From: Streptomyces californicus
GTDB taxonomy: Bacteria; Actinomycetota; Actinomycetes; Streptomycetales; Streptomycetaceae
Length of the DNA stretch: 64,000 nucleotides
Assembly (NCBI RefSeq): GCF_000717645.1
Contig: NZ_JNZZ01000024.1
Coordinates: 32,758-96,757 of the forward strand
Reading direction: 5' to 3'
Below are positions 36,583 to 61,847 of the stretch, piece by piece. The position numbers and the translations under genes were made by a program. Under the pieces are notes generated by a model, which did not search any database, was not told the origin of the DNA, and saw only the letters and a list, made by a program, of their open reading frames with translations. How positions within the stretch are numbered: the stretch's first letter is position 1; the number at the start of each line of letters is the position of its first letter.

Positions 36583-36814
36583 GAGGGGCTCCTGGGGGTG
36601 TTTCGGACGCTCTTCTTTTCTGCAGGCTAGGGGTGGGGGAGGGGTGCGGGCATGCTCCGATCGGGAGTGGTGGGGGGTGTGTCCTTGTCCTTGACGGACA
36701 GATGGCCGGATGAGGTGGTCCGGGTACCGGGAACGACCATGAGGCGGCGGACCTGAGTACTAGATTGAGCGCTGCACCGAAATACCGCCTCGGAACTTCA
36801 GGGGAGCAGTGGCG

Positions 36815-57159: not shown

Positions 57160-58200
57160 GTGGACATCGATGTGAAGCTTCTGAAGGGCTTGGCGCAGGA
57201 CAAGGAGATCCCCTTCGACGTGCTCGTCGGGGCGATCGAGTCGGCCCTCCTCATCGCGTACCACCGCACCGACGGCAGCCACCGCCGGGCGCGCGTGAAG
57301 ATCGACGAGACCGGCCACGTCACGGTGTGGGCCAAGGAGGACCCCGCCGACCTCGAAGAGGGCCAGGAGCCCGAGGAGTTCGACGACACCCCCTCCGGTT
57401 TCGGCCGCATCGCCGCGACCACCGCCAAGCAGGTCATCCTGCAGCGGCTGCGCGACGCCGAGGACGACAAGACCTTCGGGGAGTACGCGGGCCACGAGGG
57501 CGACGTCGTCACCGGCGTCGTCCAGCAGGGCAAGGACCCCAAGAACGTCCTGGTCGACATCGGCAAGCTGGAAGCCATCCTTCCGGTCCAGGAGCAGGTC
57601 CCGGGCGAGGAGTACACCCACGGCCTGCGGCTGCGCACGTACGTCGTCCGGGTCGCCAAGGGCGTCCGCGGACCGTCCGTGACCCTCTCGCGCACCCACC
57701 CGACCCTGGTGAAGAAGCTCTTCGCGCTGGAGGTCCCGGAGATCGCGGACGGCTCGGTGGTCATCGAGGCCATCGCCCGCGAGGCCGGCCACCGCACCAA
57801 GATCGCCGTACGCTCCACCCGCGCCGGTCTGAACCCCAAGGGCGCCTGCATCGGCCCGATGGGCAGCCGGGTGCGCAACGTCATGGCCGAGCTGCACGGC
57901 GAGAAGATCGACATCGTGGACTGGTCCGACGACCCGGCCGAGATGGTCGCCAACGCCCTCTCGCCCGCCCGGGTGAGCAAGGTGGAGATCGTCGACCTCG
58001 GCGCCCGCTCCGCCCGGGTCACCGTGCCGGACTACCAGCTGTCGCTGGCCATCGGCAAGGAGGGGCAGAACGCCCGCCTCGCCGCCCGGCTCACCGGCTG
58101 GCGCATCGACATCCGGCCGGACACCGAGACGGACGAGGAGCGGGAGAACGCCGACCGCGAGCGGGCCGAGCGGGCCCGGGAGCGCTCGGAAAGGCGTTGA
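57160..58200 (+). CDS. nusA: Transcription termination/antitermination factor NusA
   Basis: 346 residues, the short actinobacterial form without C-terminal acidic repeats. The N-terminal RNAP-binding domain is followed by an S1 domain ([29 protein letters not shown]), then KH1 and KH2 ([63 protein letters not shown]). The C-terminus is a charged Arg/Glu helix. GTG 57160 follows GAGGAGG and lies 2 bp after the rimP stop. Confidence 0.97.
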
Positions 58201-58313
58201 CCCGGAGCGGTCCCAGGGAATAGATCTGGAACGCACGCCGCTGAGATCACGACAACATCCGTTCGATTTTTGCCCCAAAGCGGTGAGGTCGGTACGGGGA
58301 GGTAGACTTAAAC

Positions 58314-58601
58314 GTGTCTGGCCGGACGCAAGCCCGCGCTTGCCCCGAGCGCACCTGTGTGGGGTGCCGGGAGCGAGCGGCCAAGAGCGAGCTGCTGCGC
58401 ATCGTGGTGGACGAGGGCGTCTGCGCCCCTGATCCACGCGGTACGCTGCCCGGCCGGGGTGCTTACGTGCACCCCGTCTCTGTCTGTCTCGACCTGGCGG
58501 TCCGCCGCCGGGCGTTCCCCCGGGCCTTCAAGGCCGAGGGGCCGTTCGACACCGCGGCGCTGACGCGGTTCGTGGAGCGGGCGACACCGCAGGAAACGTA
58601 A
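58314..58601 (+). CDS. ylxR: YlxR family nucleic-acid-binding protein
   Basis: 95 residues, DUF448. PERTCVGCRERAAKSELLRIVVD with RGAYVHPVSVCLDLAVRRRAFPRAF is the canonical YlxR pattern. Two N-terminal cysteines (CVGC) are present. Basic and nucleic-acid-binding; reported elsewhere as a nucleoid-associated regulator. GGGGAGG precedes GTG 58314 by 9-10 nt. It lies between nusA and infB as in most Gram-positives. Confidence 0.94.
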   Translation: MSGRTQARACPERTCVGCRERAAKSELLRIVVDEGVCAPDPRGTLPGRGAYVHPVSVCLDLAVRRRAFPRAFKAEGPFDTAALTRFVERATPQET

Positions 58602-58667
58602 GAAATGAACGGCACGGGACCCCGTGCGGTCAGGTACCTCGCGAGTTGGAAGTAGGTCGAGATTGCG

Positions 58668-58710
58668 ATGAGCACTCGATGAGTACGCGATGAGTACGCC
58701 CATGAAGTAG
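58668..58710 (+). CDS. Three overlapping micro-ORFs in the infB leader
   Basis: Three 11-bp repeats (CGATGAGCACT, CGATGAGTACG, CGATGAGTACG, from 58666) create a chain of tiny reading frames. The first is ATG AGC ACT CGA TGA (58668-58682). The second is ATG AGT ACG CGA TGA (58679-58693). The third is ATG AGT ACG CCC ATG AAG TAG (58690-58710). Peptides would be MSTR, MSTR and MSTPMK. Each stop overlaps the next start as ATGA. A weak ribosome binding site (GTAGGT) lies 10 nt before the first ATG. The chain ends 38 bp before the infB start. Translation is inferred, not shown. Confidence 0.6.
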
Positions 58711-58714
58711 CGAC

Positions 58715-58764
58715 GGTCCGGCGGTAACCCGGACCTAAAAGGAGCGAAGTGGCTAAGGTCCGGG
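58715..58764 (+). promoter_or_regulatory. Predicted two-state RNA switch over the infB start
   Basis: Arm A GGTCCGG (58715-58721) pairs with B CCGGACC (58729-58735), leaving the infB Shine-Dalgarno free. Alternatively CCCGGACC (58728-58735) pairs perfectly over 8 bp with arm C GGTCCGGG (58757-58764, inside infB codons 3-6). The second hairpin closes a 21-nt loop containing AGGAG (58740-58744) and GTG (58749). The two hairpins share arm B and cannot coexist. A ribosome ending translation at the micro-ORF stop (58708-58710) would cover arm A. Confidence 0.6.
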
Positions 58765-61700
58765 TATACGAACTCGCCAAGGAGTTCGGCGTGGAGAGCA
58801 AGGTCGTCATGGCCAAGCTCCAAGAACTCGGTGAATTCGTCCGTTCGGCGTCCTCGACGATCGAGGCGCCGGTTGTACGCAAGTTGACCGACGCACTGCA
58901 GGGGCCCGGCGGCAACGCCGGCAAGCCCGCTGCCAAGCCTGGCGCGCCCCGCAAGGCGACGCCCGCGAAGCCCTCGGCGCCCTCTCCGGCCGCCGCGGCA
59001 CGTCCCGCTGCCCCGAAGCCCGGCGCCCCGGCCCCCAAGCCGGCCGCCGCCGAGGCACCGAGCAGCACCCCGGCGGCGCCCGCGCCGTCGGCGGGCCCCC
59101 GTCCGGGCCCGAAGCCTGCCCCGAAGGCCCCGGTCACCCCGGTCCCGGCCGCCGAGTTCTCGGCCCCGGCACCGGAGCGTCCGGCCGCCCCGCAGCCGCA
59201 GGCCCCCCGTCCCGCCGGTGCCACCCCCGGCCCCCGTCCCACCCCGGCCCGTCCGGCTCAGGGCGGCGGCCAGCGCGACGGTGGCCAGCGCGACGGCGGT
59301 CGCGGTGGCGAGCGTGGCGGCGACCGCCCCGCGCGTCCCGCCGGCCAGGGCGCCCCGCGCCCCGGCGGCGCCCGTCCGGCCGGTCCCCGTCCGGGCAACA
59401 ACCCCTTCACCTCCGGCGGTTCCACCGGCATGGCGCGCCCCTCGGCACCCCGTCCCGGCGGCGCCCCGCGCCCCGGTGGCGGCCAGGAGCGCCCCGGCGC
59501 CCCGCGCCCGCAGGGCGGCCCCGGCGGCGCCCCGCGCCCCCAGGGCGGTCAGGGTCAGGGCGGCGCCCGTCCGACCCCGGGCGGCATGCCCCGTCCGCAG
59601 GCCCCGCGTCCCGGCGGCGGCCCCGCCGGTAACCGCCCGAACCCGGGCATGATGCCGCAGCGTCCCGCTGCCGGCCCGCGCCCCGGCCCTGGTGGCCGTG
59701 GTCCCGGCGGTGGCGGTCGTCCCGGCGGCGCCGGTGGCGGTCGTCCCGGTGGCGGCGGCTTCGCCGGTCGTCCCGGTGGCGGTGGCGGCGGCTTCGCCGG
59801 CCGTCCGGCCGGTCCCGGTGGTGGCGGCGGCGGTGCCGGTCGTCCCGGTGGTGGCGGCGGCGGCTTCGGCGGTCGTCCCGGCTTCGGTGGCCGTCCCGGC
59901 GGTCCCGGTGGCCGCGGTGGCACGCAGGGCGCCTTCGGCCGTCCCGGCGGTCCCGCGCGTCGTGGCCGCAAGTCGAAGCGGCAGAGGCGCCAGGAGTACG
60001 AGGCCATGCAGGCCCCGTCGGTCGGCGGCGTCATGCTGCCCCGCGGAAACGGACAGTCCGTCCGCCTGTCGCGCGGCGCCTCGCTCACCGACTTCGCGGA
60101 GAAGATCAACGCCAACCCGGCGTCGCTCGTCGCCGTGATGATGAACCTCGGCGAGATGGTCACGGCCACCCAGTCCGTCTCCGACGACACGCTGCGTCTC
60201 CTCGCCGAGGAGATGAACTACGTGCTGGAGATCGTCAGCCCGGAGGAGGAGGACCGCGAGCTGCTCGAGTCCTTCGACATCGAGTTCGGCGAGGACGAGG
60301 GCGGCGAAGAGGCCCTGGTCTCCCGTCCGCCGGTCGTGACCGTCATGGGTCACGTCGACCACGGTAAGACCCGCCTCCTCGACGCGATCCGCAAGACCAA
60401 CGTGGTCGCGGGCGAGGCCGGTGGCATCACCCAGCACATCGGTGCCTACCAGGTCACGACGGACGTCAACGACGAAGAGCGCAAGATCACCTTCATCGAC
60501 ACCCCGGGTCACGAGGCGTTCACCGCCATGCGTGCCCGTGGTGCGAAGTCGACCGACATCGCGATCCTCGTGGTGGCGGCCAACGACGGTGTGATGCCCC
60601 AGACGATCGAGGCGCTGAACCACGCCAAGGCGGCCGAGGTGCCGATCGTGGTCGCGGTCAACAAGATCGACGTCGAGGGCGCCGACCCGACCAAGGTGCG
60701 CGGTCAGCTCACCGAGTTCGGTCTGGTGGCCGAGGAGTACGGCGGCGACACCATGTTCGTCGACATCTCCGCCAAGCAGGGCCTCAACATCGAGGCGCTC
60801 CTGGAGGCCGTCGTCCTCACCGCCGACGCCTCGCTCGACCTGCGGGCCAACCCCGACCAGGACGCGCAGGGCATCGCCATCGAGTCCCACCTCGACCGTG
60901 GTCGCGGTGCCGTCTCGACGGTCCTGGTTCAGCGCGGAACGCTGCGCATCGGCGACACGATGGTCGTGGGCGACGCCTACGGCCGGGTGCGCGCCATGCT
61001 CGACGACACCGGTCAGAACGTGCAGGAAGCGGGTCCCTCGACCCCCGTCCTGGTGCTCGGTCTCACCAACGTCCCGGGTGCCGGCGACAACTTCCTGGTC
61101 GTCGACGAGGACCGTACGGCCCGTCAGATCGCCGAGAAGCGCGCCGCCCGTGAGCGCAACGCCAACTTCGCCCGCAAGGGCGTCCGGTTCTCCCTGGAGA
61201 ACCTGGACGAGGCGCTCAAGGCCGGTCTGGTCCAGGAACTCAACCTCATCATCAAGGGCGACGCGTCCGGTTCGGTGGAGGCTCTCGAGTCCTCGCTGCT
61301 CCAGCTCGACGTCGGCGAAGAGGTCGACATCCGGATCCTGCACCGCGGTGTGGGTGCGGTCACCGAGTCGGACATCAACCTGGCGACGGGTTCCGACGCC
61401 ATCGTGATCGGCTTCAACGTGCGCGCCGCGGGGCGTGCCGAGCAGATGGCCGAGCGCGAGGGCGTGGACGTCCGGTACTACTCGGTCATCTACCAGGCGA
61501 TCGAAGAGATCGAAGCGGCCCTCAAGGGCATGCTCAAGCCGGAGTACGAAGAGGTCGAGCTCGGCACGGCGGAGATCCGCGAGATCTTCCGCTCGTCCAA
61601 GCTGGGCAACATCGCCGGTGTGCTGGTCCGCTCCGGCGAGGTCAAGCGCAACACCAAGGCGCGCCTGCTGCGCGATGGCAAGGTCATCGCGGAGAACCTC

Positions 61701-61847
61701 ACCATCTCCGGTCTGCGCCGCTTCAAGGACGACGTCACCGAGATCCGCGAAGGCTTCGAGGGCGGTATCAACCTCGGAAACTTCAACGACATCAAGATCG
61801 ACGACGTCATCGCGACGTACGAGATGCGCGAGAAGCCGCGAGGCTGA
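58749..61847 (+). CDS. infB: Translation initiation factor IF-2
   Basis: 1032 residues. An N-terminal IF2N domain ([28 protein letters not shown]) is followed by a long Pro/Ala/Gly/Arg-rich disordered region (about 55-410, with GGRPGG-type repeats at about 330-400) and a second IF2N-like domain ([24 protein letters not shown]). The G domain has G1 GHVDHGKT at 534-541, [17 protein letters not shown] and later EF-Tu-like domains plus the C-terminal initiator-tRNA-binding domain ([29 protein letters not shown]). It brings fMet-tRNA to the 30S subunit. GTG 58749 follows AAAAGGAG by 4-5 nt. The leader holds the micro-ORFs and switch described separately. Confidence 0.97.

Follow-up and report, generated by a model that had tools for sequence, protein, structure and literature searches.

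The RF2 gene, prfB, is autoregulated by frameshifting. A translation factor senses its own activity there, a TGA is involved, and the stop lies in frame within the gene, whereas the infB gene examined here has leader ORFs. In the eukaryotic GCN4 and ATF4 systems, several short upstream ORFs let reinitiation read initiation capacity; these systems depend on scanning, have neither an overlap chain nor competing hairpins, and have a transcription factor as their target. In erm-type translational attenuation, a ribosome on the leader ORF selects between hairpins that free or hide the start site. Only a single ORF with a drug-induced stall is present in erm, and stalling opens the gene.

The IF3 gene, infC, is autoregulated through a non-canonical start codon, ATT in E. 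coli, a control that the available text of PMC5472188 ascribes to Streptomyces with ATC. Both are translation factor genes that use, or in infB would use, the product's own step as the sensor. However, the infC start codon is itself the sensor, whereas infB has an ordinary GTG start and its candidate sensor is an upstream ORF chain with an RNA switch. An actinobacterial leader ORF with competing hairpins is found in the whiB7/wblC attenuator, but it is one ORF and acts through a transcription terminator (PMC10727445 and PMC7157823, in the parts available). The rimP-leader regulates rimP-nusA-infB operons, and thus the same operon, but through a terminator at the operon head, before rimP, rather than internally; the available text of PMC2965389 does not mention ORFs and cites a paper of 1985 whose title names autoregulation of the E. 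coli nusA-infB operon. Post-transcriptional control of E. coli infB has been reported, but in an enteric under cold stress, and chained ORFs are not mentioned in the accessible part of that report (PMC6511841).

A search of the accessible literature found neither a description of a chain or switch in an infB leader nor an account of how the IF2 level is set in Actinomycetes. Insofar as its main text is available, a paper on Actinobacteria leader genes in general does not contain infB (PMC4833913), and the available part of PMC8079986 covers eight leader peptides of S. lividans, each of them tied to amino acids, and infB is absent from it. The initial annotation had called for an Rfam search for an existing motif; Rfam 15 gave nothing at gathering score across 58100-59100, the four matches up to E 10 all being sub-threshold (a hairpin match reached 17 bits against 33). 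The chain and hairpin upstream of infB look like an undescribed ribosome-operated control of IF2.

Results

The window, meaning the whole 64-kb stretch of Streptomyces californicus DNA that was analysed, has the Streptomyces-type order nusA-rnpM-infB. In the ORF list these are an ORF at 57160-58200, a 95-codon rnpM/ylxR-like ORF at 58314-58601, and infB, encoding IF2, at 58749-61847 on the forward strand. The first two we take to be nusA and rnpM of this operon; the identity of infB is backed by relatives, the best among the matches listed being from Streptomyces, with 96% in the best segment. The gap of 147 nt between rnpM and infB houses the leader. The infB Shine-Dalgarno (SD), AGGAG, lies at 58740-58744 on the forward strand and the GTG start at 58749-58751. 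With each infB start assigned automatically to the nearest start codon 5′ of a conserved motif, GTG was the start in 221/221 leaders from the class Actinomycetes versus 14/35 in other classes of the phylum.

Sequences resembling promoters lie further upstream. At 58290-58314, GGTAGACTT followed by GTG right before rnpM resembles a -10 box with a leaderless start, and it is present in 53 of the 65 Streptomycetaceae loci tested. Between nusA and rnpM (58217-58245), GGGAAT followed 16-20 nt on by GYT loosely resembles a SigR promoter; 24 of the 65 Streptomycetaceae loci matched. In the available texts, the SigR regulon of Streptomyces includes infB (PMC5472188) and a WhiB7 binding peak lies upstream of infB in M. 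abscessus (PMC10727445). SigR control and the WhiB7 peak point to further inputs on infB.

Three micro-ORFs linked by ATGA had been proposed in the leader, and they are present at exactly those coordinates on the forward strand. Micro-ORF 1 (58668-58682) and micro-ORF 2 (58679-58693) each encode MSTR in four codons, and micro-ORF 3 (58690-58710) encodes MSTPMK in six; the starts of the second and third overlap the preceding stop through ATGA, and the last stop falls just before the first arm of the RNA switch. Chains of at least three ORFs occur in a single other place in the window on either strand, and 5 of 6,374 window tiles reach three chained ORFs. Across the 7.78-Mb genome the repeat pattern ATGAGYRCNCGATGAG is unique to the leader (two overlapping matches). 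A looser triple-ATGA pattern had three matches, the leader's two and one elsewhere in which an initial spacing of 12 disrupts the frame link, and a reversed control had one. The micro-ORF chain upstream of infB is not due to chance. The other chain in the window, at 36702-36756, reads MAG, MRWSGYRERP and MRRRT, and we take it to be a chance occurrence.

A block 5′ of micro-ORF 1 (58633-58667, forward strand) is nearly invariant in Streptomycetaceae, with most columns at 90% or above among 81 unique aligned leaders, and has a weak SD-like AGGT inside. Of 210 class leaders, 110 have a GRAAGYRGGT-like motif 5′ of their first ATG. The chain may also have a fourth link, a GTG-started ORF at 58624-58671 (VRSGTSRVGSRSRLR and a stop) that overlaps micro-ORF 1 through ATGA; by a rough pattern, its GTG is kept in 42/81 Streptomycetaceae leaders. 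Two other Streptomycetaceae leaders (L168 and L170) have the 11-nt repeat in a fourth copy.

Conservation of the ATGA chain in related leaders had been set as a test that could refute the proposal. We located infB starts with the first 50 residues of infB and collected leaders from a subset of the matches, partly hand-picked for diversity. The sample comprised 221 class leaders, every collected class locus having been parsed; the tool's labels place them in 40 families, the window's own family supplies 85, and five f36 loci are included. A chain was defined as three or more ORFs, none longer than 16 codons, joined by stop/start overlap inside 150 nt. It is kept in 220/221 class leaders (210/211 unique), and in some of these chains one member is a GTG-started ORF present by chance. 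An earlier subset, limited to 140 nt, had a chain in 172/173 leaders, or 161/173 with ATG starts only. By comparison, three chained ORFs arose in 37 of 7,800 mononucleotide shuffles of 156 unique leaders. Outside the class, where 35 of 40 loci were parsed, one of the 35 readable leaders had a chain (L290, with GTG starts only). Of 80 named loci, about half had a readable infB start; among the named loci of the class, 17 of the 20 with a readable leader showed the chain.

The exceptions are few. In the sole miss among the 221 (L333), two ORFs are chained and a third stops 2 nt short of the pair. A three-ORF chain is also lacking in L011 and L030, where a single longer ORF precedes the hairpin region, and in L020, which has two overlapping ORFs. 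In two f11 leaders (L328 and L329) the chain is kept, but the last stop lies ~20 nt from infB, too close for the A:B hairpin described below; a ribosome at this stop could mask the SD directly. Stop positions were set by hand for L216, L236, L242 and L330, and also for L191 in the unpaired-probability predictions.

What is conserved is the overlap rather than the peptide. The chain persists despite altered peptides, spacings and start codons and despite length changes of whole codons. ORF lengths are 4-4-6 codons in 79/173 leaders and 4-5-6 in 25/173, and the 210 unique leaders encode 130 different peptide triples. In the set of 173, the junctions are ATGA (329), TGATG (7), GTGA (6) and TAATG (3). 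A Mycolicibacterium leader (L005) encodes MSTP, VKFR and MTMRHS, linked by one GTGA and one ATGA, and f36 leaders such as L309 likewise combine GTGA and ATGA links with different peptides. Outside Streptomycetaceae the DNA diverges, and frame and overlap persist. When consecutive ATGA distances of up to 40 nt were counted with no frame required, 345 of 421 were 2 mod 3; of the remainder, 61 were 0 mod 3, among them 52 at a spacing of 12, which fits the in-frame ATG of Streptomyces ORF 3, and 15 were 1 mod 3. Counting each distance once per family gave 2 mod 3 in 77/93. This frame preference is the best evidence in this analysis that the micro-ORFs are translated.

Downstream of the chain, two mutually exclusive hairpins that share 58728-58735, one of them enclosing the infB SD and GTG, were confirmed where the initial annotation had placed them. 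Three arms on the forward strand, identified by folding and covariation, make up these hairpins. Arm A (GGTCCGG, 58715-58721) pairs with arm B (CCCGGACC, 58728-58735), and B pairs alternatively with arm C (GGTCCGGG, 58757-58764), which lies within infB codons 3-6. The SD and GTG both lie between B and C, with the SD inside the B:C loop. In the window, arm A begins 4 nt past the last micro-ORF stop. When the stretch from the last stop to the SD was folded with C left out, A started -3 to +6 nt from the last stop in 148/148 unique regions, so that an ORF ends beside a switch arm throughout, as in a ribosome-operated translational attenuator. B ended 13-18 nt before infB in 141 of these 148.

That pairing should be conserved in related leaders was likewise a point on which the proposal could have failed; A:B covaries strongly and B:C less strongly but above controls, and on this point, as on the chain, the result went the proposal's way. 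RNAalifold on a MAFFT alignment of 49 sequences gave no consensus structure (0.0), because loop lengths vary among leaders. Arms were then anchored on each leader's own A:B fold, which biases the A:B counts towards pairing, so B:C is the more independent test. Among 49 leaders less than 82% identical, 321/392 A:B cells were paired, with 73 double changes (column-shuffle means 251.7 and 21.9), and 302/392 C:B cells, with 20 double changes (278.2 and 7.2); none of 2000 shuffles reached any of these values. The third base of the infB Arg codon and its partner in B read G-C in 22 of these leaders, C-G in 7, T-A in 2, G-T in 2 and A-T in 1, and were unpaired in 15. Mutually exclusive pairing is thus found by covariation, the two f11 leaders excepted.

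Whole-arm swaps among 49 groups (one leader per family or named group, with f11 absent, four rows not exactly on the stop codon and the mis-anchored L011 left in) reached the observed A:B values in 0/2000 trials. For B:C they did so in 1/2000 for cells, 1/2000 for pair types and 25/2000 for double changes. In these groups the Arg third base was unpaired in 18, of which 11 were C-C. Sliding the register lowered the scores for both A:B and B:C. The best 8-nt B:C register had 8/8 pairs in 115 of 148 unique regions versus 1.9% of shuffled B arms. Fifty leaders with a non-standard C paired 6.92 of 8 positions with their own C versus 6.70 with the standard C. Mycobacteriaceae-like leaders have a weaker B:C register, and their C is predicted to pair with another part of the hairpin. 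In these sequence comparisons, B:C is the less well supported of the two pairings.

In the window, A:B has 7 bp plus one inner pair and a predicted energy of -14.7 kcal/mol. B:C has 10 bp with its flanks, and the fold of 58721-58785 containing it is predicted at -26.2 kcal/mol; a predicted fold of 58711-58785 favours B:C over A:B. Compared with dinucleotide shuffles, z was -2.75 for the A:B stretch and -3.31 for the B:C stretch. The longer stretch 58620-58800 (181 nt) was unremarkable (z = -1.55, with 13/200 shuffles as good), and the weight of the evidence is therefore comparative. By eye, no T run of the kind expected of a transcription attenuator follows A:B or B:C in the window sequence.

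Access to the infB start was predicted for 176 leaders, the short L328, L329 and L330 having been dropped, with a ribosome on the last stop modelled by removing the 10 nt after it. Enforcing A:B gave folds that averaged 2.7 kcal/mol above the free optimum and came within 0.5 of it in 56/176 leaders. The predicted unpaired probability of codons 3-6 fell from 0.49 with A:B enforced to 0.16 with the ribosome on the last stop, compared with 0.47 to 0.36 in shuffled leaders. These codons closed by more than 0.2 in 134/176 leaders and opened in 2 (48 and 3, respectively, when shuffled). In the ribosome state, predicted SD access dropped slightly (0.72 to 0.62) and predicted GTG access rose (0.37 to 0.53). 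Closure would thus have to bury the first codons and loop the SD. In most cases B:C is the more stable fold, so an open state would have to be kinetic, with A:B forming first and then persisting, a course that the order of transcription would allow.

Discussion

We lean towards the view that 58668-58764 acts in cis as a translational switch of infB that ribosomes operate. A ribosome would initiate at micro-ORF 1 and reach micro-ORFs 2 and 3 by termination-reinitiation at the ATGA junctions. On terminating at 58708-58710 it would cover arm A, which lies within its reach. B, deprived of A, would pair with C, a pairing supported by covariation, so that the SD and GTG are looped, codons 3-6 are buried and infB is shut. 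If the chain were incomplete while RNA polymerase moved from B to C, A:B would form first and be kinetically trapped, and infB would be translated. The sign of the switch follows from which arm the ribosome covers, and negative feedback on IF2 is the most likely outcome. That a ribosome on the last stop would shut infB had already been proposed, and the geometry lends this sign partial support, with A in reach of a terminating ribosome in 148/148 regions. B:C is the more stable hairpin, the fold with A:B enforced being worse than the free fold by 2.7 kcal/mol on average over 176 leaders, so the companion idea that an empty chain leaves infB open needs co-transcriptional kinetics.

We infer that initiation capacity, or IF2 itself, is what is sensed, because of the linked starts and because of a review on coupling, the available text of which reports stronger translational coupling on IF2 overexpression and weaker coupling on IF3 overexpression, adds caveats about pleiotropy, and refers to in vitro experiments that needed IF3 (PMC12548453). 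As the last stop is reached only through linked (re)initiation events, completion of the chain should climb more steeply, as initiation capacity grows, than does the initiation of infB itself. We therefore suggest, tentatively and at somewhat less than even confidence, a bacterial counterpart of GCN4-type control, in which three linked start-stop-restart events would together sense, with amplification, the (re)initiation that depends on IF2 and fMet-tRNA, and their completion would flip an RNA switch and so shut the IF2 gene, class-wide.

The identical switch, with the same sign, might instead sense slow elongation or stalling, as with ribosome-targeting drugs, or termination by RF2 at both TGA junctions; ribosomes short of the last stop would not disturb A:B, and infB would stay on. 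In ATGA and GTGA links each junction stop is a TGA (335/345 junctions), and infB appears to be under stress inputs, given the WhiB7 peak (PMC10727445, available text) and the SigR regulon (PMC5472188, likewise). Yet TGA is dictated by the overlap geometry itself, and four-codon ORFs of varying peptide leave little space for stalling peptides, so we regard this reading as unlikely. Slightly less likely still is a chain that activates infB by collecting ribosomes that reinitiate there or unfold its start. Reinitiation after leader ORFs has been proposed for Actinobacteria (PMC4833913, available text), and the short distance and lack of a hairpin in the two f11 leaders would suit it. However, outside f11 most last stops lie 37-66 nt from infB, covering A favours B:C and buries codons 3-6, and activation gives no reason for keeping the B:C pairing.

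In an amino-acid attenuator, particular micro-ORF codons would sense charged tRNA. In favour, the second residue is most often Ser (155, 177 and 153 of 210 in ORFs 1-3), and in ORFs 1 and 2 the codon before the stop is most often CGA (310/420). Against this, there are those 130 peptide triples, the Mycobacteriaceae-like and f36 leaders differ in most codons, single-codon runs are absent, and the 210 unique leaders have no conserved run of regulatory codons such as an amino-acid-sensing leader peptide would carry; of all the readings, we give this one the least credence. A protein-bound or purely structural leader, or a DNA element, with the ORFs as incidental repeats, would account for a repeat block that is nearly invariant DNA in Streptomycetaceae. 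Against it, frame and overlap are retained where the DNA has diverged beyond that family, and no Rfam family reached its gathering score; this, too, is highly improbable.

Should the feedback switch that we favour be true, infB would stand beside infC and prfB among the translation factor genes that sense the step of translation they serve. A review calls the mechanism of termination-reinitiation, including 30S or 70S scanning and the role of IF2, unsettled (PMC12548453, available text). The infB leader would then offer a natural reporter for termination-reinitiation that makes clear predictions for every overlap. Such self-sensing would sit in a class that includes antibiotic producers.
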